Shown here piece by piece: positions 46,003 through 64,000 of a stretch of 64,000 nucleotides of DNA. Below the pieces are notes generated by a model, which saw only the letters and a list, made by a program, of their open reading frames with translations, ran no database searches and was not told the DNA's origin. A program made the position numbers and the translations under genes. Source of the stretch: Crocinitomicaceae bacterium (GTDB taxonomy: Bacteria > Bacteroidota > Bacteroidia > Flavobacteriales_D > Crocinitomicaceae); NCBI GenBank assembly GCA_023957475.1, contig JAMLHA010000004.1:124001-188000 (forward strand), in the 5' to 3' direction. Positions within the stretch are counted from its first letter, which is position 1; each line of letters begins with the position of its first letter.

Positions 46003-46007
46003 TAGCC

Positions 46008-46598: not shown

Positions 46599-46622
46599 TG
46601 TTTTTATGTCTATTTGGGGATT

Positions 46623-46756: not shown

Positions 46757-46786
46757 TTCGGTTATTTTTTCTCGTCCATTTGTCAT

Positions 46787-47284: not shown

Positions 47285-47330
47285 TTTCTTTTATGTTTTG
47301 GTTTCTATTATGGTCGTCATTTTAACTGAC

Positions 47331-47464
47331 CGCTAACGTCCCGCAGCTATGCCCAGTAGCCGTTTTGCGGGATTCGTCGCTGTCACCCGCTACAAGTTTT
47401 CTGCGGGGCACTGCTGTTTCAATTTGCTCTTTCATAGGCTATTGGGCATAGGTGCTGTTACCTG
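47331..47464. repeat. A element A5
   Basis: 134 bp. Left CGCTAACGTCCCGCAG, arm CTATGCCCAGTAGCC. Right GGCTATTGGGCATAG, then GTGCTGTTACCTG. The stop of the next gene is 3 bp beyond. Confidence 0.88.
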
Positions 47465-47467
47465 TAG

Positions 47468-48199: not shown

Positions 48200-48232
48200 A
48201 AAGTTGATATTTGAAGGTCATTCAATAATTAC

Positions 48233-48366
48233 AGGTAACGGTTTGGCGGCTTGACGCAGGGCGGATTTTACCGACAAATGTTAATACGAAGATAATACTT
48301 TTTTCTTTACGAAAATGTTCAATCGAAGCAATTAACCCGCCTTGCGTTCAAACCGCTTGTTATAGG
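48233..48366. repeat. A element A6
   Basis: 134 bp. Left GGTAACGGTTTG, arm GCGGCTTGACGCAGGGCGG. Right CCGCCTTGCGTTCAAACCGC, then TTGTTATAGG. Its arms resemble those of A1. Confidence 0.88.
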
Positions 48367-48407
48367 CATACCCCTTTGATATTCAGTTTATTAATTTGTT
48401 TTCTGTG

Positions 48408-49343: not shown

Positions 49344-50381
49344 TTAAAGGATTTCTTGAAATTCATTTAGTATTGCTTGTTTTATTGTTTCTTCAAAACA
49401 ACTATTCACTAACGCATTTACAACATTCCACATTAAAACAGGTGGAACAGCATTACCAATTGCACGGTATTTTCTGTTATCTGAAACACTGTCTAATTTG
49501 AATGATAAAGGGAATGATTGAATACAAGCGGCTTCTCTTGGTGTAAATCGTCTATATCGCTCTCCAACCATTAAAACAGGGTCGGTTCCGTTAAGGCTTA
49601 CTTTTGCTAAATGTGAGGTTATTGTATTGCAAGGTTCGTTTAAATCCTGAACTCGACCCTTATTCATCTTTTCTCTGACCCGTAACATTCCATCAACAGC
49701 TCTTTGACTGAAAAACCATTTTTCGTCTTTATCTGCTTTTTTATCAACTACTTGTTTTAAAACAATCTTAGAACTGTCTAAGGTGTTAGGCAACGGGAAT
49801 TTGAAATTGAAATAATCGACAAAATCTCTAAAACCCATAATAAAAACACGCTCACGCTTTTGAGGGACACCAAATTCAGAAGCATTTAAAAGTTTATAAT
49901 GAATGTGATAACCTGCTTTTTCAAATTCTTTTATAATTAATGGGAATGCTTTTCTTTTATTTGCCGAGAGTAGTCCTTTAACATTTTCTGCAATAAAAAA
50001 CCTAGGCTGTTTTTCTTTTAAGACTCTTACCATTTCAAAAAATAGTTGCCCTCTTTCGTCTTTATAACCCAATCTTGGTGGATTTTGGGCACTTATTGAG
50101 AATGATTGACAGGGAAAACCTCCTAACAAAATATCGTGGTCAGGTACTTCATCTGCAACAATTTCCCGAACGTCTTTTGTTTCACATTTATGCGAAAAAT
50201 TATCATTATAAATTTTAGTTGCATATGCATCATTATCAACTGCATAAACAACTTCAAAAGGTAATTCTGCATAATGCTTGTTAAGAAAATTAAAACCTCC
50301 TTGAATGCCTAAATCCATCCCTCCGCAACCACAAAAAAGCGAAGCAACCTTTAATTTGCTATTTCCAAAAGTTTCTGCCAT
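49344..50381 (-). CDS. DNA cytosine-5 methyltransferase (second of the operon)
   Basis: The 345-residue protein has motif I ASLFCGCGGMDLGI (13-26), motif IV GGFPCQSFSISAQNPP with catalytic C91, motif VI ENVKGLLSANK near 137, motif VIII PQKRERVFIMG and the closing RAIGNAVPPVLMWNVV. It overlaps the nuclease gene by 31 bp. Two different C5 methylases in one operon suggest an asymmetric recognition site with each strand handled by one enzyme, or one may be orphan. Confidence 0.95.
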   Translation of the reverse strand: MAETFGNSKLKVASLFCGCGGMDLGIQGGFNFLNKHYAELPFEVVYAVDNDAYATKIYNDNFSHKCETKDVREIVADEVPDHDILLGGFPCQSFSISAQNPPRLGYKDERGQLFFEMVRVLKEKQPRFFIAENVKGLLSANKRKAFPLIIKEFEKAGYHIHYKLLNASEFGVPQKRERVFIMGFRDFVDYFNFKFPLPNTLDSSKIVLKQVVDKKADKDEKWFFSQRAVDGMLRVREKMNKGRVQDLNEPCNTITSHLAKVSLNGTDPVLMVGERYRRFTPREAACIQSFPLSFKLDSVSDNRKYRAIGNAVPPVLMWNVVNALVNSCFEETIKQAILNEFQEIL

Positions 50382-51790
50382 TGTCCTGATGTTTTAGAAA
50401 ATTCAACAACTAAATTTTTATCAATTTTTAAATTACCTAATTCAAATTGTTTGATTGGGTTTTGAATGACAAAAATATTTTTACCCTCGTCATTTATCAC
50501 TAAATAATATACGTAATAATTATCGCCCAATGTCTCGGCTGTATCCCATTCGTTTGGTGTGAGTTTAAAACGGTTATTATTGATTGCTTTTCTTGATTTA
50601 GTCGTCTTTACTTCGATATACCGTTTCTTTTTTTCTATTTCAATACTTTGTAAATCATATCCAACTCCAAGTGGTGTAGGGATTTTGTTGATTAAATGCT
50701 GACGGTTTGAACCGTCTTTTGTTCTCAAATATTCGTGTGCTAATATTAGTGTTTCACCATAGTCGCCTATTATTTTTGTGGGAACTTTTCTATCTTCTTT
50801 CATTCGTGAATAATACTCTTGAATGAGTGCAGATATATTTTCAACTTCCTGTTCTTCTAAATGTGGTGCGAACGCTTCGATGTTATCAAAACTATTTACA
50901 TAATCAAACCAGACCGCTTCTAATGCTCCGATTTCAGGATTTGTAATTTCGTCTATATTGTAGAATTTATCGTACTCATCAAACCAAACATCATTCTGTA
51001 AGTGAAAGTTAATAGCCTCTTTGTTTTCGTTATTAAGATAGTAATAATAACCTGTTCCTTTATGCTGTAATAGGTTGGCTAAAACCATATAGTCCAAAAT
51101 ATCTCCAGCATAACGATTTGTATCGCCTTTTGACGGAAACTTGCCTGTACGTTCGTTTCTTAGGGCTTCATAGTCATATTTATATTCTACTTTATCTTTT
51201 CTGTTTTGTAGAATGAGTTTAGCGACTTCTTTCGCTTGTCTTTCTCCCGTGGTAACACGTAGGTCAAAATAAGCACATTGTGTTAATTCTTCTGCTGTTA
51301 TGCTAAATGATTTTCCTGTTAATTTCTCTCCTTCAATAAGTAAATTAAGTATAAACTGACAAGGTTTAAATCTTACACCTGCCTCAATCTGTTTGATTAC
51401 ATTTTGAGATTTAATATGACCGCCAGGATATTGAAATGAAAATAAAAAGTAATTAAAAAACTCATCTAAATATTGATTGTTAGCAAGTCTTTTTGCCATT
51501 AGTCCGGGTTGAGAATAATTATTAGTTTCTTGTATAAATCCAAACAAGGCAGAAATCTCTGTACGCCAATTATCAATTGTTTTTTGTGTAGATGTTGCAT
51601 TCTTCTTAAACCCAAATAACACCTTGTTCAATTCATTTCTAAAATCGCTGTTTGGCAGAACTTCTATTTCTGAAATTGAGGTTGCTACATACAACAAAAC
51701 TTCCTCTACATCATTTTTAAAACGAGGTCTAACGTGATGTAATCGAAAAAAATACTCTTTAGGTATTCGGTATGTTTTTATTTCGCTCAT
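50351..51790 (-). CDS. Restriction endonuclease with DUF3883-type PD-(D/E)XK domain
   Basis: The 479-residue protein is helical and unassigned in its first 320 residues. The C-terminal part has GDYGETLILAHEYLR near 340, GVGYDLQSIEIEKKKRYIEVKTTKSR near 370-395 and NEWDTAETLGDNYYVYYLV near 405-425. D in GYD, E and K in IEVKTT fit a DUF3883/NOV-type nuclease core. Between two C5 methylases it is the obvious cutter of a type II system. It overlaps the first methylase by 4 bp (ATGA) and the second by 31 bp. Confidence 0.87.
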   Translation of the reverse strand: MSEIKTYRIPKEYFFRLHHVRPRFKNDVEEVLLYVATSISEIEVLPNSDFRNELNKVLFGFKKNATSTQKTIDNWRTEISALFGFIQETNNYSQPGLMAKRLANNQYLDEFFNYFLFSFQYPGGHIKSQNVIKQIEAGVRFKPCQFILNLLIEGEKLTGKSFSITAEELTQCAYFDLRVTTGERQAKEVAKLILQNRKDKVEYKYDYEALRNERTGKFPSKGDTNRYAGDILDYMVLANLLQHKGTGYYYYLNNENKEAINFHLQNDVWFDEYDKFYNIDEITNPEIGALEAVWFDYVNSFDNIEAFAPHLEEQEVENISALIQEYYSRMKEDRKVPTKIIGDYGETLILAHEYLRTKDGSNRQHLINKIPTPLGVGYDLQSIEIEKKKRYIEVKTTKSRKAINNNRFKLTPNEWDTAETLGDNYYVYYLVINDEGKNIFVIQNPIKQFELGNLKIDKNLVVEFSKTSGQWQKLLEIAN

Positions 51791-52830
51791 AAATATTTTT
51801 TTATTTCTGTAGCCAATACTTTTGCCAAAATTGGTGGAACTGCATTACCAACTTGTTTATATTGACTTGTTTTACTTCCTAAGAAAATAAACGAGTCAGG
51901 AAATGATTGTATTCTTGCACTTTCCCTTACAGTCGGAACACGATTGTATTTATAATGGAAATGATGTCTGTGTCCTGTATCAATCGTAAAGCTCGGCTTT
52001 TCACTATTTAATCGTGTCCAAGCAATATTTACATTTCTTGTTTTTTGTAATTCTTCGGGTAAATCTTTGTAATTTCCCCCATCAGGAACAAGTGAAATAA
52101 TATTTATTGTCTGTTCTTTATGATTGGTTATTTCGTGATTAAAAATTCCATTAGAATTTTCTCTAATTAGCTTTTGATAATCTGACTTCGGTTCTGTTTT
52201 GTATTTAGTTCCATCTTTCAAAGTTTTTTCAGGCAAATCCGAAATTGCATCTTTTGAACTTATTGGATTTGCTGTTGTTTGTTCAGGAAAAACAAACTCT
52301 TTGTTATTTTTTGCACCAACAAAAAATGCTCTTTTTCTGTTTTGTGGAACGCCAAAATCTGAAGCTAATAAAACTTTGTAAACTACGGTGTAACCAAGTT
52401 CTTCAAAATCTGCAATTATGCTGTCTTTTACAACGCCTTTTCCCATAGAAACAATGTTAGGCACATTTTCCATTAGAAAGACTTTTGGTTGATAATGTTT
52501 TACAAAACTTACAAATGATTTGTAAAGTTGATTACGCTCATCATCAATTATTCTTTTCCCTGCAATGGAAAAACCTTGACAAGGTGGCCCACCAATTATT
52601 ACATCAACATCTTTAATGTTTGTTTCTTTTTGAATTTCTTGAGGCGTTTTTGTAAATAAATCAGCAACAATTCCTTTTGCATTTTTGTGAGTATTTTCAA
52701 ATGTAACAATCGCATCTTTCCAATGGTCAATACCCAATAATACATCATAACCTGCTTCGATAAACCCATAAGAAAGTCCACCACAACCACAAAACAAGTC
52801 TATTACTGTTGGTTTATTTTTCATTTTCAA
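51787..52830 (-). CDS. DNA cytosine-5 methyltransferase (first of the operon)
   Basis: The 347-residue protein has motif I VIDLFCGCGGLSYGF (9-23), motif IV GGPPCQGFSIAGKR with catalytic C84, motif VI ENVPNIVSMGKG near 123, motif VIII PQNRKRAFFVG, and motif X YKQVGNAVPPILAKVLA near 326. It methylates the host's recognition sites. It overlaps the controller gene by 17 bp and the nuclease gene by 4 bp. Confidence 0.95.
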   Translation of the reverse strand: MKMKNKPTVIDLFCGCGGLSYGFIEAGYDVLLGIDHWKDAIVTFENTHKNAKGIVADLFTKTPQEIQKETNIKDVDVIIGGPPCQGFSIAGKRIIDDERNQLYKSFVSFVKHYQPKVFLMENVPNIVSMGKGVVKDSIIADFEELGYTVVYKVLLASDFGVPQNRKRAFFVGAKNNKEFVFPEQTTANPISSKDAISDLPEKTLKDGTKYKTEPKSDYQKLIRENSNGIFNHEITNHKEQTINIISLVPDGGNYKDLPEELQKTRNVNIAWTRLNSEKPSFTIDTGHRHHFHYKYNRVPTVRESARIQSFPDSFIFLGSKTSQYKQVGNAVPPILAKVLATEIKKYL

Positions 52831-53152
52831 ATTTTATTTTTCCTTGTTTTGTATTTATACTTTTTAGATAATTTATTTTTTCTTCCGCAACAATCAGCGT
52901 TTCAGGTGAACAGTTGTATTGATACATTTTCTTTGCGAATTGGTCTGCAAAATATTCTGTTTTCAACTGTTCAATGTCAAGATTAAAAGCAGTTGCCAAT
53001 TTCTCTAATCGTTTTTCGTCAAATTCACGTTTCCCATTTTCGATTTTGCTTAAATTTGCACTATCAAGGTCAAGCTGAAAAGCAAGTTGCGTTAAAGTTA
53101 AGCGATGGCTTTTCCTTAATTTTCTTATATACTCCCCAAATGTTGCTTTCAT
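52814..53152 (-). CDS. XRE-family controller (C) protein
   Basis: The 112-residue protein has a helix-turn-helix of the Xre type: FGEYIRKLRKSHRLTLTQLAFQLDLDSANLSKIENGKREFDEKRLEKLATAF (5-56). A short helical C-terminus follows. As first gene of a restriction operon, with a palindrome over its own -7 box (see 53171-53214), it fits a C protein that delays nuclease production when the operon enters a new cell. It overlaps the methylase gene by 17 bp. Confidence 0.9.
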   Translation of the reverse strand: MKATFGEYIRKLRKSHRLTLTQLAFQLDLDSANLSKIENGKREFDEKRLEKLATAFNLDIEQLKTEYFADQFAKKMYQYNCSPETLIVAEEKINYLKSINTKQGKIKFENEK

Positions 53153-53170
53153 ATACTTGCAAATTAAAAC

Positions 53171-53214
53171 TTGTCAATCTATGACAAAATTAAATAAATA
53201 ATTTGATTCTACAA
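53171..53214 (-). promoter_or_regulatory. Promoter and operator of the TIR restriction operon
   Basis: On the minus strand, TTG (53214-53212), 19 bp and TAATTTTG (53192-53185) match the Bacteroidota promoter. The perfect inverted repeat TTGTCA-ATCTA-TGACAA (53171-53187) touches the -7 box and lies 18-35 bp before the controller start. It looks like the operator of the C protein. Confidence 0.75.
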
Positions 53215-53246
53215 TTTTTTTTAATGGTTTTTTAAGCGTTGGAAAA

Positions 53247-53309
53247 ATTTAGCTCTTTTTGGTTTTTGTGTTTAGGCTTGTGCGGTGGGAAAACCAAAAT
53301 GTGCTAAAT
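53247..53309. repeat. B element B7
   Basis: 63 bp. ATTTAGC, TCTTTT, then arms TGGTTTT and AAAACCA, AAATGT, GCTAAAT. Same outer arms as B3. Right border of the TIR restriction module. Confidence 0.78.
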
Positions 53310-53330
53310 GTGCGGTGGGTCAGGGGTTGC

Positions 53331-53490
53331 CTTTAACGTTTTCGGGCTTTGCGTTCGGGCGGGTTTCAGAGCACAAAGCTTCAATTTATTACTAAAGTTT
53401 ATTAGAAGCACAAAGCTCCAAGTTTGCACAGCTTGTCCCGTGAGGAACGAAACGGGATCAGCCCGCCTGACGCAAAACCCGTGTTAGTGG
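53331..53490. repeat. A element A7 (long variant)
   Basis: 160 bp. Left CTTTAACGTTTTC, arm GGGCTTTGCGTTCGGGCGGG. Right CCCGCCTGACGCAAAACCC, then GTGTTAGTGG. The centre holds an extra ~25 bp with GCACAAAGCT twice and a small inner hairpin, CCCGT...ACGGG. Confidence 0.85.
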
Positions 53491-53508
53491 CTGGCGTTCT
53501 GTTTTCCG

Positions 53509-54816
53509 TCATTGTACAAATATTGGGAATGTGAATTTTTCTGTTCCAGTATGGTCTCTAATAATTTTACATTCTACATAATGATGTCCAAGATAAGCTG
53601 CCGCTGTCTCACATATTACTTTGTTATGGTTTGTTTTATTAAAGTCGTGTCGTGACATATTTTTACTTTCTGCTTCTTGTCCCGAATTATATGCATACCA
53701 TTCAATTCTCTCAAAGCTTTGTTTTACATATAGAGAGTTTCCACGTTTCAAGCGGAAAACTATTTTTTTTCCTTTGGGAATTGAACGAGAATTAGGAAAG
53801 TATCTTTCAGTGTTACTTCCGCTTTCATCTGAAATAAAACATTCAATATGTATTTGCTTTTCTTTCACTTCAATTGACTTGCCATCGCTACTTTTTCCCA
53901 TATAGGGAAGTGAAAGCAAGTAGTCCTGCCAATTAAAAACAAAGAATTTATAAGTAAACTGATTTGAGATGTAGTATACTTTTTCTTTACTGACTTCAGA
54001 TTCGTAAATGCTATAAAACTCAGGTTTTAAATCCAATTTTTCCTTTACATTTCCGCCAATTAAAATATTATTATCGTATGCTTTTGATTGAAGTTTAGCT
54101 GCCATATCAGTATGTAAGCTAGTTGTAGTTAACTCATTACATCCTGGAATACCATAATAAGACCATAGAACTTGGTCAGCATTACCAAAGTCAATGCCAA
54201 CTCTAATTTTTAAAGGACGCAATTCATATTGTTTCATAATGTCTGCAAGGTCTTTTGTTACGAACTGTGTCAAAATGGATGATGCATTAAGAGCATTAAT
54301 TATAGCGTCATTTTCATTTTTATCACGTCTAACAAATTGGAGAAAAATCCCGTCACCTTGAAGTCTATGAACGTGACCGCCAAATTGGTTCGCTACTTGA
54401 ATTGATAATGTCAGCAAAGAGTCCTTTATTAACCTTACTTCTAGTAAAGAATATTTTTCAATTAGTCTTGTCGAGCCTTTTATATCTACAAAAACTGAAA
54501 CGCAGTGATGGTTAATGTAGTTGGTGTCTGCTAATTCCTTAAAGTCTGGATGCGGACCAATTGTAATAAATGGAAAAGAGTGAGGGTTAATTCCAAATTT
54601 ATCTTCAAGAAACCTTTTATCGTAAGTAAATAAAACTTTTGGCCCTTCAATTACGGCTGGAACATTTTGAGTACTCTCATTAACTGCTTTCGCTTGTATG
54701 CTTTTTTGCAAGTCACCACTAAACATTCTCTGTTCTTGTAGTAGTTTGGGTGTAACGGCTACCTTTTTCGATAGCACGTCATTTAGTCCGTCAAGGTAAT
54801 TATCAAACAGTCTCAT
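53509..54816 (-). CDS. pycC: Pycsar pyrimidine cyclase (PycC) with AGS-C sensor
   Basis: I use the ATG at 54816, whose first base overlaps the effector stop (TGATG), giving 435 residues (MRLFDNYLDG). The class III cyclase domain has VFVDIKGSTRLIEKY near 92-106 and LQGDGIFLQFVRR near 138-150, with the two metal-binding Asp, and RVGIDFGNADQVLWSYYG near 202-219. The C-terminal ~130 residues (IECFISDESG...SIPKGKKIVFRLKRG...YNSGQEAE) resemble the AGS-C sensor domain seen on such defence cyclases. Members make cCMP or cUMP on phage infection; which one cannot be seen. A TM effector precedes it. Confidence 0.87.
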   Translation of the reverse strand: MRLFDNYLDGLNDVLSKKVAVTPKLLQEQRMFSGDLQKSIQAKAVNESTQNVPAVIEGPKVLFTYDKRFLEDKFGINPHSFPFITIGPHPDFKELADTNYINHHCVSVFVDIKGSTRLIEKYSLLEVRLIKDSLLTLSIQVANQFGGHVHRLQGDGIFLQFVRRDKNENDAIINALNASSILTQFVTKDLADIMKQYELRPLKIRVGIDFGNADQVLWSYYGIPGCNELTTTSLHTDMAAKLQSKAYDNNILIGGNVKEKLDLKPEFYSIYESEVSKEKVYYISNQFTYKFFVFNWQDYLLSLPYMGKSSDGKSIEVKEKQIHIECFISDESGSNTERYFPNSRSIPKGKKIVFRLKRGNSLYVKQSFERIEWYAYNSGQEAESKNMSRHDFNKTNHNKVICETAAAYLGHHYVECKIIRDHTGTEKFTFPIFVQ

Positions 54817-55334
54817 CAGTAGATTACTATTATTAAGATTATTGAAAAAATGCAGAAAAGCTCGAAATAGACAAATCGCATAGCCCACTTTAAATTATTG
54901 TATTTTGATTTTAAGCCGTTGGCTAATTGAAATGCTTGATGAGATAGGTCTCTTTCAAATTCATTGTCAGTAAGTTTGCTAAGAGAGTCGTGATAGGCTT
55001 TGTCACTCTCAAATTCTGATACAGAATTGAAGAAAATGTGAGAATGATAATTGTCTTTGCTTGAGTTTCCCGATATTAAATATGGGTAAACTGCATTTAT
55101 AACAAAAACAGTTGTCACAATACTGCTAATAATTAAACAGCATAAGGCTATGTTCAAAAGTGTTGCACCGCAGTTGTCTGTAATTAGTTCAATCATTTTT
55201 GAATAGTTAGCTATTACTCCACCAGTCAAAAAGGTATTGAATGCCAATAGAAAATTCCCTTTCACATTGGCACCCGATATGTAATTGTCATACCGCTGTA
55301 TGATGAATTTTGTGTTATCTGTCTGTTTGTCCAT
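54816..55334 (-). CDS. pycTM: Pycsar membrane effector (PycTM-like)
   Basis: The 172-residue protein has transmembrane segments near 25-45 (NFLLAFNTFLTGGVIANY), 55-78 (LLNIALCCLIISSIVTTVFVIN) and 152-172 (FVYFELFCIFSIILIIVIY). Between them is a soluble part with EFERDLSHQAFQLANGLKSKYNNLKWAM, which fits the DUF5706 effector family. Bound cyclic pyrimidine would trigger it to disturb the inner membrane and stop phage growth. It is translationally coupled to the cyclase gene. Confidence 0.83.
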   Translation of the reverse strand: MDKQTDNTKFIIQRYDNYISGANVKGNFLLAFNTFLTGGVIANYSKMIELITDNCGATLLNIALCCLIISSIVTTVFVINAVYPYLISGNSSKDNYHSHIFFNSVSEFESDKAYHDSLSKLTDNEFERDLSHQAFQLANGLKSKYNNLKWAMRFVYFELFCIFSIILIIVIY

Positions 55335-55476
55335 ATTTAATTTTATGTTGTCTATGTCGTGTTACGCTTGCCACTAACTCTTTTATATATTCAGTCAAAA
55401 CTTCCCTTTAGCTAAAAATTCCTTTCTAAAGAGATAAAATGTTTCGCCTATTCATTGTACAATAATAATAAAAAAA

Positions 55477-55584
55477 TTACAAATCATCAAACGGACTTTT
55501 GATATTTTCAATTTGTTTTTTGGATACATGTGTGTAAATTTCAGTTGTACGGCTACTGTTGAACACAGGAATTGCTACGCCCAT
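55477..55584 (-). pseudogene. C-terminal remnant of a tyrosine recombinase
   Basis: The 35-codon minus-strand frame ends SSRTTEIYTHVSKKQIENIK followed by SPFDDL and stop. This is the C-terminal tail of XerC/D- or IntI-like recombinases, with the nucleophile Tyr in TEIYTHV. The frame upstream is not recognisable (MGVAIPVFN), and no other catalytic part is found nearby. It is the only piece of site-specific recombinase in the window and lies inside the palindrome array, 154 bp before A8. The short length is the main limit, but the tail is very typical. Confidence 0.75.
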
Positions 55585-55737
55585 AAGGTTGAAAAATGAC
55601 GATAAGACAAGCGAAAAAATACAAAAAAGTCTTATTGGCTGTTTAAAACACAGAAAATAAAGGCTGAAAAGTAAAAACTACTATTAAAAACAAACTTCTT
55701 TCGAAGTGAAAACGACTAAAAATAACACTCCAAATTA

Positions 55738-55882
55738 TTGAAACGCCATAGAGAAACCGAATTGGCTCCCGAATGCTTCTGTCAACAAGGACTAAAGCCG
55801 AAGTTTACTCCACGTTGTTCCGTGAAATCGCTGCGCTAAGTTCGTTTCACTACACTGCGGTTTAGTCTCTATATGTTAGCGG
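55738..55882. repeat. A element A8 (degenerate)
   Basis: 145 bp. Left TTGAAACGCC, arm CATAGAGAAACCG. Right CGGTTTAGTCTCTATATG, then GTTAGCGG. The left core has AAAC instead of TAAC and the arms need a 3-nt bulge. An inner pair, GGACTAAAGCCGAAG and CTGCGGTTTAGTC, competes. Confidence 0.6.
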
Positions 55883-55950
55883 ATACCTTTATTGATAAAT
55901 GTATTTTTATCTGCTCGTCAGTTTGAAATACAACTACTTCCGTTTTGATA

Positions 55951-56433
55951 CTACGAATTGAATGCTATGTTTTTATCAGGTATGAAATCAGTAAACTTTA
56001 TTGTGACATAATCATCAGTTGGTATGTAAACTAAACTAAGTTTCCAATCAATTGGTTTAGTTAAACAATCAGGGATAAATATTTCTCGCAAAATAATATC
56101 AGAATCAAAGTCTACTTTCACTTTTTGACGATCGATCCATTGCGCAAGCTTCTCCTCAAGTAAAGGGATAATTATTTTACTTTTAAGATTATCAAACTCG
56201 CTCTTAAGAAACGTAAAGAAATCTTTTTGGGATTTGTTTGGAACACCTGTGCTACAATCCAAATCAATTTTGACTTCTACTTCATCAAAAAGAACTTTGC
56301 CCTTCAGATTCTTTGAGACTATCTTTTTGCCATAAATATCTGTTCTAATTTCATGCTTTAATTCACCGAAATAATCGTCTTTGATGTCTTTTAAATTGTT
56401 TCGGCTTCCAAATAATTTACTCCAAATTGTCAT
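55951..56433 (-). CDS. Unknown soluble protein, one-gene cassette
   Basis: The 160-residue protein has no signal or membrane segment. The pattern is DUF6985/DUF2004-like: KLFGSRNNLKDIKDDYFGELKHE at the start, then strands of 6-10 residues (KVLFDEVEVKIDLDCS), a helix (QKDFFTFLKSEFDNLKSKIIIPLLEEKLAQWI) and closing strands DDYVTIKFTDFIPD. I do not know its role. It lies between A8 (68 bp) and A9 (78 bp). Confidence 0.65.
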   Translation of the reverse strand: MTIWSKLFGSRNNLKDIKDDYFGELKHEIRTDIYGKKIVSKNLKGKVLFDEVEVKIDLDCSTGVPNKSQKDFFTFLKSEFDNLKSKIIIPLLEEKLAQWIDRQKVKVDFDSDIILREIFIPDCLTKPIDWKLSLVYIPTDDYVTIKFTDFIPDKNIAFNS

Positions 56434-56511
56434 ATAAATTCTTTTAACCCCTATGGTAATCCTAATTTAACATTCCTGTTTATTTATTTCAGGTTGGTTT
56501 TATTAGGGTTT

Positions 56512-56647
56512 CCGCTAACGTTTTGGCAGCTTGGCGAAGACGGCACTTTTTGTACAAATCTTTAATCGAAGCTTCGACCTCAAATTTAACGAAAAACTTT
56601 AAATCGAAGCTATTATTGCCGTTTTTGCCAAACTGCGGGTTAGCGAA
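56512..56647. repeat. A element A9
   Basis: 136 bp. Left CCGCTAACGTTTTG, arm GCAGCTTGGCGAAGACGGC. Right GCCGTTTTTGCCAAACTGC, then GGGTTAGCGA. The stop of the following fragment is 4 bp away. Confidence 0.87.
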
Positions 56648-56651
56648 CGTA

Positions 56652-56840
56652 TTATTTTAAATCGAGATCATCTTCACTTATTCCCCACCACTCCTGTAAG
56701 TCAACATTGAGTTTAATGAATTTTATTTTAGTATTGTTGTTTTCTCTAGCTTGTTTCTCCCATTCTTTAACTTTGGTTTTGTTGAGTTTGCCAGTAAATT
56801 TCGCCCATATAACTACGCAAATATAGTCAGTATCCTCTAT
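56652..56840 (-). pseudogene. 5'-truncated gene fragment (62 codons)
   Basis: The minus-strand frame IEDTDYICVVIWAKFTGKLN..., ending QEWWGISEDDLDLK and stop, is open for 62 codons with no start codon, after an in-frame stop. The charge pattern and the WWGISEDDL end look like a real protein C-terminus. The stop lies 4 bp from A9, as for intact cassettes, so I take it as a cassette that lost its 5' part. No family known to me. The gap from 56841 to 57051 holds no further gene. Confidence 0.55.
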
Positions 56841-57051
56841 TTAAAGTATATATTGGCTACTTAATTCATTACCATCAAAGTCATGAGATTTTGTAAGTAA
56901 TGAATTGAGAGTTCGCTAAATTACAACCGTGTGTAATAAAAAAGATTACAAATAAAGTGAATATGAGAATTTTTTAAAAAGATTCTGTTTTTACAGTTTT
57001 ATCTCTCATTATAAAATAGCTTATGGAAAAATAGAGAGCATTGTGTTTAAT

Positions 57052-57465
57052 TCACTTTCTTTTCAATGTGATAGAGTAATTATTATCTTTCCCTACAGAT
57101 TCCAAGACAATTTCATTGTTGGATTTTTTTACGATATTGAAATCCATCTCCTCTGATGACGTTTTTAATTTCACACTTTTGCTATCTTCCGAAGTTTTAT
57201 ATTCTCCTTTAGAGTTTTTTTCTCCGTTTACCACAAAACTACCATCCTCGTTAAATTCATATTCAGTGCCAATGGAATTGACATTTAGAAAAAGAGTAGC
57301 AATCAACTCCATTCCCTCTATATCTGATTCATTAGGGGTAATGCTATTTATCTCCCATTTACCTACGATAACGCTATTTGAGTTGGATTTTGTAGTACAA
57401 GCGAACAAGAAAATGAAACAAGTAACAATAATACTAAATGGTCTAAAAAAATATTTTATTTTCAT
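57052..57465 (-). CDS. Lipocalin-like lipoprotein
   Basis: The 137-residue protein has a lipoprotein signal (IIVTCFIFLFACTTKSN, Cys near 23) and a short beta barrel: SVIVGKWEINSITP, GTEYEFNEDGSFVVNGEKNSKGEYKTS and IVLESVGKDNNYSITLKRK. This is the pattern of the lipocalin_5-like/DUF4923 small lipoproteins common in Bacteroidota. It lies 17 bp after the Cys-rich gene and is probably on its transcript. Ligand not known. Confidence 0.75.
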   Translation of the reverse strand: MKIKYFFRPFSIIVTCFIFLFACTTKSNSNSVIVGKWEINSITPNESDIEGMELIATLFLNVNSIGTEYEFNEDGSFVVNGEKNSKGEYKTSEDSKSVKLKTSSEEMDFNIVKKSNNEIVLESVGKDNNYSITLKRK

Positions 57466-57482
57466 AACTATAGATACTTATA

Positions 57483-58319
57483 TTAAAATTGATACGAAAC
57501 TGCGGTGTAGGCAATTGTTTCAACACCTCCTCCAATAATTTTTCCTGTAGATAAAGTACAAGTTCCTGAACAATCTCCTTCGCAATATGCAAGACTTCCT
57601 ACTCCCAAAAGGCTTCGTGTTTTAATTTTACAAGTCCCACTAGTACAGCTACACGAAGCCTTAGAAACTCCTGCACCACCGATTGATAATTGCAGAGTAG
57701 GAGGAAGTGAGATAACGGGTACAGCAACCATTGCAACCCTTCCTAAAATACTTATGGGTGCCATAGCGTATCCTGTGGGGGCAGAAACAAAATTATCACC
57801 AACCCTAACAGCAGGGGCGGGAAGACCTCCACATACTCTTTCAAAAAAAGTTTCTAAAGATTTTATCACTTCGGGTAGCTCAAACATTTCTTCAAATACA
57901 GTCGGTAATGAAGAATTATGCTCTACAAATCTAACAGAATCAGAAAAATCTATAAATCCTCCACGAACAAAATCATATACTCGATCATTTAGTCTTGCCG
58001 ATTGTTTCATTGTGCAATTACTACAGTTTCCAGCACAACCTGATGTATTTCCTTGAGGACCACTACCTGTGAATGGTAAACAATCCCCACTAGTATTGCA
58101 GGTACAAGAAACAGAAGTAACTCCGCTTGAAATTTTGAGAACTTCTGGGCATCTTTCTCTTTCAGTTACCCCTATGTACTCCCATCCTGATGGAGCTTGA
58201 ATGGTTATACTTCTATCCCTGTTTACCTGAACAGTTGAGTTAAGAGGGAACCATCCCTTAGCTATTTTTTGACACCCACAATTGCAATCGTGATTTATAT
58301 TATTTTCATCTCTACACAT
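57483..58319 (-). CDS. Cysteine-rich protein of unknown family
   Basis: The 278-residue protein has about 22 cysteines in clusters: CNCGC near 13-17, CTCNTSGDC near 73-81, CAGNCSNC near 94-101, CSCTSGTC near 220-227 and CEGDCSGTC near 241-249. The second and fourth clusters and the third and fifth are pairwise alike (C-x-C-x3-G-x-C then C-x-G-x-C-S-x2-C), so the two ends seem to be copies of one unit around a Gly/Pro/Val-rich hydrophobic middle (VAMVAVPVISLPPTLQLSIGGAG). No signal peptide is seen. Metal binding or disulfide-rich export are options. I recognise no family. Confidence 0.7.
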   Translation of the reverse strand: MCRDENNINHDCNCGCQKIAKGWFPLNSTVQVNRDRSITIQAPSGWEYIGVTERERCPEVLKISSGVTSVSCTCNTSGDCLPFTGSGPQGNTSGCAGNCSNCTMKQSARLNDRVYDFVRGGFIDFSDSVRFVEHNSSLPTVFEEMFELPEVIKSLETFFERVCGGLPAPAVRVGDNFVSAPTGYAMAPISILGRVAMVAVPVISLPPTLQLSIGGAGVSKASCSCTSGTCKIKTRSLLGVGSLAYCEGDCSGTCTLSTGKIIGGGVETIAYTAVSYQF

Positions 58320-58755
58320 AATTGTTTTTTTTAATTAAAAAAAAAACTCTTTTCACAAATTTACAAATATTTTTTTTATAAACAAATATCATGATTAAAT
58401 TTTAAAAAATGAGAAAATAGAGTATTTGTCCCTAATCTAGGATTCAAATACACTCAACTTATATAATTTCGTTGGGTAATCTTGTGTGAAAAAAGAAAAC
58501 TATTTTAAAAATGTGGAGGAAAGAAAAGAAAAGAATAAATTGAGCATCGGTCAGTGCTGGCAAAATTGCAAATAAAATCTTTTCACATAAATTCTGAAAG
58601 AATGCAAAAGTTTTATTGCGATGTACTTGAACCGTGTGGCTATTTATACATAGTGTCTAAGTTATTGACACAAAGAGCCGTGTGGTAGCAATTTTGAATT
58701 AAAGTCATTTTCTTCTAATAATAAAACTTATATTAAATCGTACCCTTTCATATGT
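58320..58755. other. Noncoding gap between Cys-rich gene and A10
   Basis: In 436 bp I see no frame with protein-like composition. The first 60 bp are almost pure A and T and should hold the promoter of the Cys-rich gene. The words CCGTGTGG occur twice (58638 and 58678). No terminator or RNA found. Confidence 0.5.
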
Positions 58756-58890
58756 TCGCTAACGGTCGCGGCTATGAGCAGTGCGGGATTGCGTGGTTAC
58801 GACCCTATCACCCGATAAGAACCTTGCCAGCGGGAACTGAACTTGCAAATTGCATTGAAACCCGCATTGCTTATGAGCCGTTGTTAGCGT
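58756..58890. repeat. A element A10
   Basis: 135 bp. Left CGCTAACGGTC, arm GCGGCTATGAGCAGTGCGGG. Right CCCGCATTGCTTATGAGCCG, then TTGTTAGCGT. The coding end of the neighbouring membrane-protein gene reaches into the right arm. Confidence 0.87.
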
Positions 58891-59461
58891 TTCGTTGTTT
58901 TTTTTGTTCAAGTTTTCTAAATCCATAAAAAATTAGTCCGCTACATATTATTAATCCAAGTATTGCAGGAATAATAATTGACTTCCCCGATTCTCCAGCG
59001 TTTTGAATACTCCAAACTATCTTTCCTGTCGCCATTAAAACTACCACACCAAGTCCCATAATTAAACTACGTTTCCAGAAAGCAAGTCCTAATGCGAAAA
59101 ATGAAATTGGAACCGTAATAATTAGCATTATTTTTTTATAATTCCATTCACCATATAACCAGTCTTTTTCAAATTGTAGAAATGTCTTAACATTATCGCT
59201 TACGAATTCTGGTCTATTAAACCAAAACATACTTGTAAAAAGGCAGAATACTGTTATCGAAATTCCTGTCCAACTTCGCTTATATGCATAAAAACAAAAC
59301 GGCATCAAAAAAATTGGTCTTATATACCAACTCCATTGGTTGTGATGTCTATCAAAAACCCAGTCAAAGAAGGTTTGATTTGTCATTGATACAACCAAAA
59401 ATATAATTGTCAATGCAAAAAAAATCAATGCGATTATTTTATCCTGATTAATTAGTTTCAT
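58871..59461 (-). CDS. Multi-pass membrane protein of unknown function
   Basis: The 196-residue protein has about five hydrophobic helices: 9-28 (KIIALIFFALTIIFLVVSM), 46-62, 65-85, 107-128 (KKIMLIITVPISFFALGLAF) and 150-175 (IIIPAILGLIICSGLIFYGF). The last residues NANNGS and the stop are read from the right arm of A10, so the end of the protein has been set by the element. No family known. The start is 52 bp from A11. It forms a one-gene cassette. Confidence 0.7.
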   Translation of the reverse strand: MKLINQDKIIALIFFALTIIFLVVSMTNQTFFDWVFDRHHNQWSWYIRPIFLMPFCFYAYKRSWTGISITVFCLFTSMFWFNRPEFVSDNVKTFLQFEKDWLYGEWNYKKIMLIITVPISFFALGLAFWKRSLIMGLGVVVLMATGKIVWSIQNAGESGKSIIIPAILGLIICSGLIFYGFRKLEQKKQRNANNGS

Positions 59462-59513
59462 ATTCTTTCATTTAGTAATTATCTGTCTGGATGCGTGTTT
59501 TTTTTTACAATGA

Positions 59514-59646
59514 ACGCTAACGGTTACGTGTATGAAACGTTTGGCATTTCGAAGGGATTTCTTATCAAGTTACAACTACTTTTGATACGAGCTGAAATGC
59601 TTGATAAATCACTGACTGCCAAATGTTTTATACACGATGTTAGCGG
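59514..59646. repeat. A element A11
   Basis: 133 bp. Left CGCTAACGGTTA, arm CGTGTATGAAACGTTTGGCA. Right TGCCAAATGTTTTATACACG, then ATGTTAGCGG. One of the best-paired examples: 20-nt arms with two changes. Confidence 0.9.
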
Positions 59647-59671
59647 TTCGTGCTTTTTATATCATTGCATT

Positions 59672-60025
59672 TTAAGTCTTTATAGTGTTTAAAATCTTCT
59701 TTTTCCATTGTAAAATTATACTGTTCTGACACTCAGAATTTAATATTACAAAGAAAAAAGCAAGTTTGTTCATACGCCAGTCTATATAGGTTTTTCCACT
59801 TTCAATTTCTGTAACATAAATCCGTTTCAGATAATGAGTTGTATCCAAATTAGCCATACGCAATATATGGATTGTTTTTAGCAAGGCTTCATTAAGATCG
59901 GCTTCGGTTTCAAACCCTGCTTTATATAAATCAGATGTTCTGTATCTTAGCTCACAATCATTGACAGCTTCATGAAAACGATTGATTATTTCATTAATCG
60001 GTAAAGGATATTTTATGATATTCAT
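59672..60025 (-). CDS. Unknown small helical protein next to DnaJ
   Basis: The 117-residue protein is helical: PLPINEIINRFHEAVNDCELRYRTSDLYK, ADLNEALLKTIHILRMANLDTTHYLKRIYV, then a short DWRMNKLAFFFVILNSECQN. It is 25 bp after the dnaJ stop, on the same strand, and could be in its operon. It does not match the CbpM modulator that often follows CbpA. The stop is 25 bp from A11. Function unknown. Confidence 0.6.
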   Translation of the reverse strand: MNIIKYPLPINEIINRFHEAVNDCELRYRTSDLYKAGFETEADLNEALLKTIHILRMANLDTTHYLKRIYVTEIESGKTYIDWRMNKLAFFFVILNSECQNSIILQWKKKILNTIKT

Positions 60026-60050
60026 TTCTCAATTAATTTATATATTACAT

Positions 60051-60983
60051 TTAAAATAAAGTTTTAAGTTCTTCAAAGTGTTTTTTCTGCTTATCAGTAA
60101 GTCTTTCGGGTATTTGAACATCAATTTTTACGTACAAATCACCGAATTGATTTTTGCTCTCATAAACCGGCATGCCTTTATTTTTCAACCTAAAAGTCTT
60201 ACCGTTTTGCGTTCCGGGCTGAATAGGTAATTTCACCTTACCGTCAATAGTTCCTACTACTATTTCGCCTCCCAGCACAGCAGTAAACAGGTCTATTTTT
60301 TGCGTTGTGTGTAAATCGTATTCCTTGCGTTCAAATTTTGGGTGGTTCAATACTTTAATTTTAACATATAAATCGCCGTTATTTTGTCCATTTGAAGTTT
60401 TTTGCCCTTTTCCTTTAATTCGTAAATTTTGCCCATCGACAGTACCGGGCTTAATTTTTATTCTTATTTTTTCATTTTCCAATTGAATAATTCTCGAAGT
60501 GCCATGAAAGGCTTCTTCAAGCGTTATATCTATTGTTGTTTCATAATCAGCCGCTTGTTGAAAATTTCCCCACGAACCACCACCAAAATTTGTGGATTTT
60601 GCTCTTCTGCCTCCACCAAAAAACATATTAAAGAAATCGGAAAATTGATTGTTTCCATTCATAAAGTCATCCATATCCATTTCGACATACGTTCCTCCCT
60701 GTCCGAAATTAAAGTTTCCGAACGGGTTGCCACCCGAATATGCCTGACCGGATTGAAAGTTTTTCCAATTTGTACCAAGCTCGTCATATTTTTTGCGTTT
60801 TTCGGCATCGCCAAGCACTTCGTAAGCTTCGCCGATTTCTTTAAATTTCTCCTCTGCTTCTTTGTTTCCCTGATTTTTATCGGGATGATATTTAACGGCT
60901 AACTTACGATATGCCTTTTTTATCTCGTCTTGCGATGCCTTTTTATCAACGCCTAATATTTTATAATAATCTTTGTATTCCAT
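60051..60983 (-). CDS. cbpA: DnaJ-class chaperone, CbpA-like
   Basis: The ATG at 60983 gives 310 residues ([12 protein letters not shown]); the frame also has a TTG 12 bp upstream. The J domain (1-70) has the HPD motif in [10 protein letters not shown] Gly/Phe-rich linker (about 75-150) with FGGGRRAK follows. No zinc finger is present, so it is type II (CbpA). C-terminal substrate domains begin near [20 protein letters not shown]. It works with DnaK to handle unfolded proteins. It heads a heat-shock group with two Hsp20 genes upstream. Confidence 0.93.
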
Positions 60984-61093
60984 ATCCAAAAACAATTATT
61001 ATTCGTCACTTTGACAACTCAAAATAAAAAATATTCCGAATATTAACCAAAGCATCATAATGTTATAGATTTTAAGAGTTATACATCTTTATT

Positions 61094-61131
61094 AAAATCG
61101 GTGCTTATGTTTTTAATTAAGCACCGATTTT
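61094..61131 (-). terminator. Intrinsic terminator of the Hsp20/lipoprotein genes
   Basis: Stem AAAATCGGTGCTTA (61094-61107) with TAAGCACCGATTTT (61118-61131), 14 bp perfect. It follows the lipoprotein stop by 12 bp in the direction of transcription. Confidence 0.85.
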
Positions 61132-61143
61132 ACAAAAGTTCCA

Positions 61144-61626
61144 TTACTTATTCTTTTTTTGCTCGGGAAATTGCTCCATGAAAAACTTGTTTTTAATGGA
61201 ATCCATTTCCCAAAACATTTTGTCCATTCGTTGCATGTTCCGCATAAAACGGTCGTGAAAAAAATCTTTTTTGTAAAAATCGTAGTGCAACAAGCTGTCT
61301 TCGAAAAACAAATTATCGAAATATGGCTTTGTAGAAAATGGATAGCGATTTTCAAACATACTTCGGAAGTTATTAAAGATACTGTCGCCTGCGGCTTTGT
61401 TTCCGTCAACATTTGAATAATAGTACGTATATGTAGAGTCGTAACGGATTAAATTTCCGTCCTTATCGTACTCTTTGTTTACTTTAATATCTTCTTTGGG
61501 CTGATTCCCAGATATTAAGGCAGAATCAGCACTATTTTTATTTTTCTCCTTTTTTATCTCTTGTGCATTGCAACCTGAAAAGATTAATGAAATTGCAATG
61601 AACATAGTTATCCATTTTATTTTCAT
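61144..61626 (-). CDS. Small lipoprotein of the heat-shock cluster
   Basis: The 160-residue protein has a lipoprotein signal (MFIAISLIFSGCNAQ, Cys near 19), a charged linker (IKKEKNKNSADSALISG) and a helical, Phe-rich, Met-rich C-terminus (FFHDRFMRNMQRMDKMFWEMDSIKNKFFMEQFPEQ). It lies 19 bp after hsp20 and is followed by a terminator. A role in envelope stress is likely only from the context. Confidence 0.7.
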   Translation of the reverse strand: MKIKWITMFIAISLIFSGCNAQEIKKEKNKNSADSALISGNQPKEDIKVNKEYDKDGNLIRYDSTYTYYYSNVDGNKAAGDSIFNNFRSMFENRYPFSTKPYFDNLFFEDSLLHYDFYKKDFFHDRFMRNMQRMDKMFWEMDSIKNKFFMEQFPEQKKNK

Positions 61627-61645
61627 AATCTTACAATTTTAAAGG

Positions 61646-62086
61646 TTACTGAATAGCAATTTGTTTCTTATTTTCAATGTAGCCTTTTTTCTTTGCCACT
61701 TTAATCGAAAGAACTCCGTTTTTCATTTCAGCCTGTACTTTATCCTGGTCGGCACTTTCGGGCAATTGAAACATTCGTTGGAACGAAGCATAGCCGTATT
61801 CTCTGCGCATCCAGTTTCTGTTTTTCTCTTCTTTTTCGTATTTTTTTTCAGACGAAACAATCAAACAATCGTTTTGTATTTCGATTTTTACATCTTTCTT
61901 ATCAAGTCCGGGCAAAGCTACACTTACCTCAAATGCCTTGTTTTCGTCTGCAATATTCACCGATGGAACTGTTGCAACTTCTTCGTTATGAGAAGTATAA
62001 TCGGTTATTTTTTTACCGAAAAATTTTTCCACAAAATTCGGAAATTTCGGTTTCATATCTGATATATTCCATTTGAACAGTTTCAT
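61646..62086 (-). CDS. Hsp20 small heat-shock protein (second copy)
   Basis: The 146-residue protein has an N-terminal arm (MKLFKWNISDMKPKFPNFVEKFF) and an alpha-crystallin domain (about 45-135: AFEVSVALPGLDKKDVKIEIQNDCLIVSSEKK, RREYGYASFQRMFQLPESAD, VQAEMKNGVLSIKVAKKKG). It also has an IAIQ end with an I-x-I type motif. It holds unfolding proteins until DnaK/DnaJ act. It is 89 bp after the first hsp20, with a hairpin between them. Confidence 0.95.
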   Translation of the reverse strand: MKLFKWNISDMKPKFPNFVEKFFGKKITDYTSHNEEVATVPSVNIADENKAFEVSVALPGLDKKDVKIEIQNDCLIVSSEKKYEKEEKNRNWMRREYGYASFQRMFQLPESADQDKVQAEMKNGVLSIKVAKKKGYIENKKQIAIQ

Positions 62087-62133
62087 AACTCAAATTATTT
62101 ATGGTTAACCATTTGTTGTAAAATTTTAAGAAG

Positions 62134-62163
62134 ACATCTGTGGGAAAAGATTCCCACAGATGT
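62134..62163 (-). terminator. Hairpin between the two hsp20 genes
   Basis: Perfect 12-bp stem ACATCTGTGGGA (62134-62145) with TCCCACAGATGT (62152-62163) and a 6-nt loop. Few T follow it, so it may be an attenuator or mRNA-stability site instead of a full terminator. Confidence 0.65.
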
Positions 62164-62175
62164 AACTTAAATCAA

Positions 62176-62622
62176 TTACGAAATTGAAATTTGTTTTACG
62201 GGTTTTGGTTTTGCTTCTTCTTTTTTAGGAATTGCTAAACTCAAAACACCGTTTTCGTATTTTGCAGAAATTTCTTCTGCATCGACAGTTTTAGGCAAAG
62301 TAAACGAACGGCTAAACGATTGATAACTATACTCACGGCGAGTATAGGTTTCGCCCTCTTTACTTTCGTTTTCATTTTTCTTTTCAGACGAAATTGTCAG
62401 CAAATCGTTGTTGAGTTCGATTTTAAAATCGTCTTTTACCATTCCGGGTGCAGCCATCTCAACTACAAAAGTATCGGTGTTTTCTTTGATGTTTACTGCC
62501 GGTAAAGTTGTGTTTGTGTCTGAATAATGACGGTTTGACCAATCAGACAAATCGTTGTTAAAAAACTCGTTTACGAAGTTTGCCCAAGTAGGCAAATAAT
62601 CGCTTCTTCTTAAAAGTGCCAT
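62176..62622 (-). CDS. Hsp20 small heat-shock protein (first copy)
   Basis: The 148-residue protein has MALLRRSDYLPTWANFVNEFFNND at the start, and an alpha-crystallin domain (about 45-135) with VVEMAAPGMVKDDFKIELNNDLLTISSEK, RREYSYQSFSRSFTLPKTVDAEEI and YENGVLSLAIPKKEE; the end KPVKQISIS has an I-x-I motif. A clear Shine-Dalgarno AAGGAGT lies 6 bp upstream of the ATG, which is unusual in Bacteroidota. It is the first gene of the heat-shock group. Confidence 0.96.
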   Translation of the reverse strand: MALLRRSDYLPTWANFVNEFFNNDLSDWSNRHYSDTNTTLPAVNIKENTDTFVVEMAAPGMVKDDFKIELNNDLLTISSEKKNENESKEGETYTRREYSYQSFSRSFTLPKTVDAEEISAKYENGVLSLAIPKKEEAKPKPVKQISIS

Positions 62623-62962
62623 AATTTACTCCTTTTTTATTGGTTAAACATTTAATATTTAATTTTCGAATATTGATTCTCAATTTTAATGCCAATAAAT
62701 TTGTAAAAAACATGGTTTTTATGAAACACCCTGATAAACAACGCATTATATTCTTTTCTGTAATTTCTCAGGGTGGCAGAAAAAGACAATGCGTAATGCC
62801 ATTATGGCGGTTATGTTTTTATATCCAAGATAACCAGCATTTTATTGCATGTCAATATGACACCACTCAATAATTGTCTTTATATATTACTTGTTTTTGC
62901 ATGAAAAAAAACATAACCTATCTTTTCCAATTAAAATTGTTTCTGTCGGTTGTTTTGCATGA
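62623..62962. other. Control region upstream of the hsp20 genes
   Basis: 340 bp with no gene. On the minus strand, TTGACA (62855-62850), 17 bp and TATCTT (62832-62827) look like an E. coli-type promoter. A palindrome TGTCAATATGACA (62850-62862) overlaps the -35. A CCCTGA...TCAGGG repeat (62729-62773) lies in the leader. These could control heat induction, but no test is possible here. Confidence 0.45.
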
Positions 62963-63096
62963 CCGCTAACGGTCAGTGGCTCAGAGAAGTGGCAATTTTA
63001 AGGTGAAACCCAAGCACGAAGCGTAAATTTCTTTCTTACAGTAATCTTCAAAACGAAGCATTTTGCTTGCCATTTCTCTGAACCACGGGTTATGAG
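62963..63096. repeat. A element A12
   Basis: 134 bp. Left CCGCTAACGGTCA, arm GTGGCTCAGAGAAGTGGCAA. Right TTGCCATTTCTCTGAACCAC, then GGGTTATGAG. The following stop codon is 4 bp away. Confidence 0.89.
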
Positions 63097-63100
63097 TAGA

Positions 63101-63448
63101 CTAAAAATGTATTCCTTTTTGAATAGTTTCGTTAGTGCTTAATTCATGTGATTTTCCCTGTTTATTGACAATGACTAAATTTGCAAAATCACCAAACTTT
63201 TCGTATATTTCAGAATTATTTAGATGAGTATAGTTCAACTTGTTTTGTTTAGCTTGTTCTAAAATAAATAAATCTGTAGTATCAAATAAAACACTAAATT
63301 CATCAATAAATTCATTTTTATTAATTGTTGTAAAATTTCTAACAATACATCCACCACAATATTCAGGGTAAATTATTAAATAGTTTTTTTCTTTTTTCTG
63401 ACAAGAAAAAAATGATATTAAACATAAAAATACTAAGTTAAATTTCAT
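63101..63448 (-). CDS. Small lipoprotein with CGGC motif
   Basis: The ATG at 63448 gives 115 residues (MKFNLVFLCLISFFSCQKK), a lipoprotein with lipid Cys at 16. After it comes YLIIYPEYCGGCIVRNF, which looks like the first strand and C-x2-C of a thioredoxin-like fold. A helix and a YEKFGDFANLVIVNKQGKSHEL segment follow, like the closing strands of that fold. It may be a thiol-disulfide sensor. It overlaps the upstream gene by 11 bp and its stop is 4 bp from A12. Confidence 0.65.
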   Translation of the reverse strand: MKFNLVFLCLISFFSCQKKEKNYLIIYPEYCGGCIVRNFTTINKNEFIDEFSVLFDTTDLFILEQAKQNKLNYTHLNNSEIYEKFGDFANLVIVNKQGKSHELSTNETIQKGIHF

Positions 63449-64000
63449 ACACATAATATTTGTTTTTTTTGAAATTAAATAGATACATTTTTTTCTCTTT
63501 CATAAATGCATAATAATAAACATTATCCTTGATGTAATAAGAACTGATTTTCTTTAGATTTTTATCAAACTTAATTAGTTCAAGATTGTGATTGTAAATT
63601 TGGATATTATTTTCAACATGAATATCTATTGGAAATTCTTTCAACAAATACACGTAATCAGTTGTAATAAAAACCTCTTTATTGTAATCTGTACTAAATC
63701 TATACTTTTTTAATTTTGAAATTTGATATTGGTCAATGTGCTTTAATGATAAATAGTTATTTTTCAAATTATCTATTATAGAATGATTTTGTGTTTTTAA
63801 TTCATTAGATTTTGAAATACAATTAAGAACTCTTGGAGCATGATAAAGAAAAAATCCGTCGCTTGCAATAACAGGATATCTAAAATATTGAAATGAAGTT
63901 TCCAATTCTTCACAAACTTTATTTGAAAAAAAAGATGTGTCTTGATTGAAGTAATAGAATAAGTACTTGGTATTTCGATACCATTCATTTTTATCAACAA
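63438..64000 (-). CDS. Unknown protein, 5' end outside window
   Basis: The frame is open from the window edge to the stop at 63438, about 186 codons (starting VDKNEWYRNTKYLFYYFN). The visible part has repeated short beta strands (SDGFFLYHAPRVLN, VFITTDYVYLLKEFPIDIHV, IQIYNHNLELIKFDKNLKKISSYYIKDNVYYYAF), as in six-bladed beta-propeller proteins of Bacteroidota. It overlaps the small CGGC lipoprotein gene by 11 bp and is coupled with it. The missing part prevents any firm call. Confidence 0.6.
   Translation of the reverse strand, partial: VDKNEWYRNTKYLFYYFNQDTSFFSNKVCEELETSFQYFRYPVIASDGFFLYHAPRVLNCISKSNELKTQNHSIIDNLKNNYLSLKHIDQYQISKLKKYRFSTDYNKEVFITTDYVYLLKEFPIDIHVENNIQIYNHNLELIKFDKNLKKISSYYIKDNVYYYAFMKEKKMYLFNFKKNKYYVYEI

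Follow-up and report, generated by a model that had tools for sequence, protein, structure and literature searches.

The window, the whole 64,000-nucleotide stretch of DNA analysed here, spans positions 124001-188000 of contig C28 in a Crocinitomicaceae genome of 3.14 Mb and 33 contigs. On its minus strand, a 35-codon frame at 55477-55584 translates to MGVAIPVFNSSRTTEIYTHVSKKQIENIKSPFDDL and a stop codon, exactly as the preliminary description had read it when claiming a tyrosine recombinase tail. That assignment stands for about 28 of the 35 codons (about 55561-55477), but not for the first codons, MGVAIPVF, which are unrelated upstream sequence; comparison with the integrase of a close relative (L119, 81% over 86 nt) places the junction at about 55561/55562, where ...GTGTT meets CAACAGTAGCC. 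A search of the host's own genome recovered one full-length relative of the tail (74% identity, E 5e-8), a gene of 346 amino acids at C2:16089-17126 with an identical attI behind it. Comparison of the 3' flanks showed 105 bp (stop codon to TTA, both counted) that are 100% identical behind stump and full-length gene, and a second, identical tail lies 14.4 kb further on in C28, within a 1,100-bp perfect direct duplicate. Because of this full-length relative, the identical second copy and the identical flank, we exclude a chance frame. Additionally, the enzyme has not been lost from the genome, as the C2 gene is intact. The features of the window that bear on the tail are as follows.

23595-23732, 28003-28141 and 39317-39454 (range 23595-39454), minus strand: three spaced-out attC sites (covariance model)
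45868-46003, 46623-46757 and 47329-47465 (range 45868-47465), minus strand: three further attC sites (covariance model)
48231-48367, minus strand: attC closing an interval with restriction-modification genes (hairpin scan, covariance model)
53329-53491, minus strand: attC (hairpin scan, covariance model)
53337-55377, minus strand: cassette behind the window attI, with PycTM and PycC of the Pycsar anti-phage system (PADLOC and Pfam matches)
55378-55476, minus strand: attI-like site that follows the stump, with its crossover directly after G55378 (AAAAGAG^TTA); the full-length integrase has a 100% identical site behind it
55378-56518, minus strand: attI-ended unit of ORF160 cassette, remnant, stump and attI, with two copies in the C28 array that share 1,100 identical bases (55424-56523) and have different neighbours at G^TT on both sides
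55477-55561, minus strand: stump from the 3' end of an integrase gene (about 28 codons plus stop), 74% identical in protein to the full-length C2 integrase, with an identical second copy at C28:193899-193979
55562-55785, minus strand: 224-bp segment left between the stump and the attC of ORF160, beginning TTGACAG, probably what remains of a cut cassette (read from the sequence)
55786-55885, minus strand: weak, less certain attC of the ORF160 cassette, under the thresholds of hairpin scan and covariance model, whose left arm matches the cassette start (GTTAGCGGA; read from the sequence)
55951-56433, minus strand: ORF160, cargo of the unit, without a family match
56511-56647, minus strand: attC upstream of the attI-ended unit (113 bits with the attC model, the site being in its training set; hairpin scan; own-start test)
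58755-58891, minus strand: attC (hairpin scan, own-start test, covariance model)
59513-59647, minus strand: attC (hairpin scan, own-start test, covariance model)
62962-63097, minus strand: attC (hairpin scan, own-start test, covariance model)

Known RNA families had no match in window positions 50,000-64,000. The key feature at the tail site is the attI behind the tail, which was absent from the first reading. This attI-like site is 102 bp long, ends AAAAGAG^TTA and occurs six times in the genome at 89-100% identity: behind the full gene on C2, in the window (C28:179375), and at C28:193794, C28:199406, C5:54070 and C30:43156. Five of the six copies adjoin an integrase stump without the rest of the gene, and stump lengths vary. 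The stump at C28:199406 starts directly after the stop codon of a gene whose end we take to be that of mnmA, and the C5 stump directly after a gene that is presumably uvrA. The arrays on C5, C28 and C30 contain no complete integrase gene, although attI and the gene's 3' end are retained there.

The palindromes are attC sites, and the earlier placement of the tail inside a palindrome array was correct, as hairpin scan and covariance model both find attC hairpins around it. In four arrays, an inner-stem scan detected hairpins that hardly vary in length, against almost none in shuffled sequence. The covariance model, built from 20 hairpins, identified 52 attC sites in the genome (on C28, C2, C5, C29, C30, C21 and C19) and further sites in 14 of 18 other genomes tested; G080, which encodes a strong canonical IntI, had no attC of this model. 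Contig C29 holds four attC over 23 kb (95236-118641), with no attI or integrase detected on that contig. Compensatory changes occur at 17 of 18 stem pairs, and the bottom strand folds more stably at 22 of 26 sites (DNA parameters). An A.C mismatch is kept in 19 of 20 hairpins and spacers measure 1-2 versus about 5-6 nt, with no bulge defined and the MAFFT columns imperfect at the spacers. Covariation and predicted energies suggest that the integrase may use the folded bottom strand.

Since an integron cassette originates as a circle, its attC is completed by the first bases of that same cassette. At 28 sites in the host genome, the attC left arm matched its own cassette start at 6.2 of 7 variable positions, against 3.5 for the next cassette and 3.3 after shuffling, and none of 10,000 shuffles scored as high. 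Values for 64 sites at 20 loci in other species were closely similar (own start 6.0, next 3.2, shuffled 3.0; 0 of 5,000 shuffles as high). This own-start match is the mark of circular cassettes. Additionally, arrays C2 and C30 have a 699-bp cassette in common (698/699 identical), with identity stopping exactly at G^TT on both sides, and C30 has only an integrase stump.

Several cassettes carry whole anti-phage systems. The Pycsar cassette directly behind the window attI begins GTTAGTGGCA, to be compared with its attC arm GTTAGTGGCT, and the interval after it encodes two C5 methyltransferases, a BpuJI-like restriction enzyme and a TIR-type protein. In array C2, the first cassette codes for a type VI retron-like reverse transcriptase together with a methyltransferase. 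The cassette region of plasmid NZ_CP041688.1 from Chryseobacterium sp. SNU WT5, whose homologue of the integrase is WP_143853951.1, includes a gene for a group II intron reverse transcriptase (15762-17078).

The tail had been interpreted as the remains of the array's own enzyme, cut by rearrangement near the palindrome labelled A8. This is too simple, as the head of the array is another attI with its stump at C28:199406, and the window stump belongs to an attI-ended unit present twice inside the array. The unit is 1.14 kb long; it starts at G^TTAGCGG (56519/56518) and ends with the attI crossover (55378/55377). Its two copies part from their respective neighbours at G^TT, in attI on one side and in the upstream attC on the other. 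Because the two units share 1,100 identical bases that include the stump, truncation of the gene must have preceded duplication of the unit. The unit behaves like a cassette ending in attI that was copied to a second place after gene truncation, and the simplest reading is that recombination took place at attI without its own integrase, with an enzyme from elsewhere, most likely that of C2. Mobility with IntI1 has been demonstrated for delta-attI-type cassettes of class 1 integrons, in which attI takes the position of attC (PMC12901181); the boundaries and two copies of our unit likewise have attI replacing attC at the 3' end. The attI ends of the two units differ over about 47 bp (window 55378-55423 versus C28:193797-193842), the window copy being of the C2 type and the other of the C28:199406 type. 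Exchange at G^TT alone does not explain this difference; its appearance suggests gene conversion or another type of exchange close to the attI hairpin.

It could be argued that the stump-bearing attI copies are dead debris of integrase-less integrons, outside recombination and duplicated by ordinary homologous recombination. Stump lengths that vary between loci are what decay would leave, and the exchange of attI ends resembles gene conversion. However, truncation of the gene came before duplication, and the neighbours nevertheless switch at the two G^TT sites, while attI is well conserved at all six loci and the stump-only array C30 holds the nearly identical C2 cassette. The same pattern is seen in a different genus (G015), where stumps with near-identical attI occur twice, followed by different cassettes. 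We therefore consider the dead-debris explanation unlikely, and favour attI copies that still take part in recombination.

The full-length C2 integrase is outside canonical IntI, as argued by the additional domain, the model cut-off and its clade. It scores 195.5 bits against the integron-integrase model TIGR02249 (cut-off 265) and 213.6 bits against the XerA model (cut-off 220), below the cut-off in both cases. Alignment with VchIntIA (PDB 2A3V) gives two aligned blocks, between which 25 residues are left opposite 67. In an alignment of 59 proteins, the spacing from KDR.VP to HxLRH is 61 residues in 24 of 24 family members, 102 in 20 of 20 canonical IntI and 64-68 in Xer, so that the additional domain (I2, about 41 residues, between patches II and III), which is reported to be required for folded attC, is missing in all 24 members checked. 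A predicted structure of the whole integrase (pTM 0.52, used for this point only) has no helix at the I2 position. Family, IntI and Xer form separate single clades in our tree (support 100/98 and 100/100; IntI sampled from Bacteroidota only), and the catalytic Arg, Lys, HxxR, His and Tyr of the Xer/IntI-type core are invariant in the alignments. Thus, the earlier view of the tail as the relic of an IntI-like recombinase stands, but canonical IntI membership does not, the additional domain being missing.

Aligned members also have an extra N-terminal domain of about 70 residues (L119:8001-8216, integrase residues 1-72), with invariant Trp37 and Trp44. Comparisons with HARP were not significant either by sequence (Pfam HARP E about 0.08, in one member) or by Foldseek, whose first match was the SMARCAL1 HARP domain (4o66, E 0.37); VIA-align gave a best Z of 4.2, to other folds, and HARP was not among the matches listed. 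The resemblance to a HARP-type structure-recognition domain is suggestive only, and the domain could be a reader of DNA structure.

Relatives of this integrase are widespread. At least 559 candidates were confirmed, and the 80 kept include Flavobacterium (F. psychrophilum too), Pedobacter, Algoriphagus, Cyclobacterium and many metagenome-assembled genomes (MAGs). Around the family's integrases, attC-like hairpins number 66 in 294 kb downstream versus 2 in 542 kb upstream, with none in shuffled sequence; 45 of the 80 loci had no hairpin at threshold, many of them with little sequence behind the gene. The full-length homologues directly upstream of such palindromes bear out the proposal that the tail was the best lead to the enzyme acting on them, and because the hairpins sit downstream of the family's integrases, these homologues are not phage or ICE integrases never found near palindromes. 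The layout of integrase, attI and attC also occurs in Flavobacterium, Pedobacter, a Chryseobacterium plasmid and many MAGs; full-length members are present on two Chryseobacterium plasmids, one with four attC behind the gene. In other species, a G^TT junction matching the attC arm of the first cassette was found at 24 of 28 loci, mostly 95-108 nt behind the integrase stop and typically preceded by TATAnACAAG or similar.

At the loci of three relatives (L024, L026 and L028), the contig breaks off within about 75-220 bp of the integrase 3' end, and in L028 the break falls right on the attI junction (..AAGTTA); repeated attI in those genomes as well would lead one to expect this. In another genus, two nearly identical integrase stumps (G008:C16:258204 and G008:C20:24389; L063 and L069) have an upstream segment in common and are followed by different sequence. 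A Salmonella enterica IncC plasmid (L191, CP082616.1) carries, at about 6019-6640, the C-terminal 155 aa of a family integrase. This partial gene has an end resembling attI (GCGCATATAAGTAAG^TTAGCTGC) and adjoins mph(G)/mef(C) and an ISVsa3 element. This is a stump and attI of Bacteroidota type on a proteobacterial plasmid, far from home.

Taken together, the tail is very probably the stump of an integron integrase, joined to attI in a cassette array and served in trans by the I2-less enzyme of the C2 type. We read the system as an integron class built on an I2-less integrase. An integrase lies beside attI and a directional array at C2 and at 24 of 28 loci in other genomes, cassettes are closed by attC hairpins with R arms of their own origin and a conserved stem, and exact cassette units (the 699-bp C2/C30 cassette and the duplicated unit) occur in different places. 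In this layout, attI lies about 100 bp behind the integrase stop, and the cassettes after it share the orientation of the gene, each terminated by a hairpin attC of about 136 bp. The intact 346-aa C2 integrase or a close relative probably acts in trans on six attI and about 52 attC, and would join them at G^TTA, as IntI does. The anatomy, the duplications, the covariation, the cassette signature and the missing domain are firmly established, whereas recombination by this enzyme, its action in trans and its use of the folded bottom strand are inferences.

Other tyrosine recombinases of the host (XerC/D-type, a gene end on C21 and others) could also act on these sites. The C21 gene end (4553-4765, minus strand, ..ISPLDHLDISE and stop) belongs to a different recombinase and is truncated where the contig stops. 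One attC follows it at a distance of about 2 kb (2240-2375, minus strand), and the gene is perhaps a second integron integrase of the genome. One may therefore ask whether these are true integrons whose cassettes are moved by another recombinase (canonical IntI in trans, XerC/D or the C21 enzyme), with the I2-less family as bystander. Such a view draws on the further recombinases in the genome and on reports that I2 is necessary for IntI activity (PMC7790495, PMC8138268), including Messier and Roy (2001), as cited in PMC7790495. However, no canonical IntI was found in the genome, and its only integron-integrase model match at E 1e-30 or better is the C2 protein. Canonical IntI is common in other classes of the phylum but rare in the host's class, in which one sampled genome has a copy over the cut-off, and the position of integrase, attI and attC is kept across many species. 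We thus regard a bystander role as quite improbable, and retain the I2-less integrase as the likely enzyme. A third view, in which an ordinary phage, ICE or Xer-type integrase left the tail by chance among unrelated palindromes, is as good as refuted: tyrosine-recombinase C-termini are alike and relatives of up to about 36% identity exist in Bacteroidota phages, but those matches are distant, the same attI lies behind stump and full gene, attC arrays lie downstream and not upstream of the family's integrases, the G^TT junction recurs behind the integrase in other species, and the tree sets Xer proteins apart as a separate clade.

The surprising part is the enzyme class, an integron integrase without I2. 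The acquisition of I2 has been credited with the shift from double-stranded to folded sites, for which intermediates are noted as missing (PMC7790495). A widespread natural I2-less integrase heading attI/attC arrays makes this step directly testable. Tentatively, and at less than even odds, we suggest that this Bacteroidota family arrived at integron-type exchange either on a path separate from the gain of I2 or ahead of it, with a Xer-like enzyme reading folded attC otherwise (by the mismatch pattern and perhaps the N-terminal domain) and one trans-acting enzyme serving dispersed attI that spread as attI-ended units. Our data suggest that integrons are common in Bacteroidia. A survey reported few in Bacteroidetes/Bacteroidia, where it lists a single complete integron, from Salinibacter ruber, besides elements with an integrase only (PMC9024848). 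The low number may reflect search methods that depend on the additional domain and on canonical attC. Our literature search (preprints outside its scope, few subscription papers within it) found no paper on integrons of the I2-less type in Bacteroidota, which is weak evidence. Family members on Chryseobacterium plasmids and cassettes with whole anti-phage systems are among the reasons why the finding matters.

Sedentary chromosomal integrons share with this system an intI, an attI, a directional array, hairpin attC, the G^TT crossover, cassettes closing on their own first bases and movement between arrays. In contrast, the integrase here is without the additional domain, the conserved site is GTTA/GTTG with variable bases and not always GTTRRRY, attI lies behind the 3' end of the gene with cassettes in the same direction, and one intact integrase is accompanied by six attI in one genome. 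Canonical IntI (TIGR02249; VchIntIA) resembles the family in its Xer-like fold, SP(L/F)D tail and two well-aligned blocks, whereas the family has the shorter motif spacing (61, not 102 residues), a separate clade, scores below the cut-off and the extra N-terminal domain. XerA/XerC/XerD (NF040815, 4a8e, 5hxy) are closest by score and in the PDB and likewise have no additional domain, but the family is a clade apart from XerC/D, heads attC arrays and carries the N-terminal extension. The arrays on C5, C28 and C30 resemble CALIN, attC clusters without an integrase, in having no complete integrase gene, but differ in retaining attI and the gene's 3' end. Finally, the window unit is like the delta-attI-type cassettes of class 1 and 2 integrons (PMC12901181) in having attI as its 3' recombination site, its own mobility being suggested by its two copies only; unlike them, it includes the stump of an integrase as well as the entire cassette before it, and sits in a chromosomal array of another integron class.
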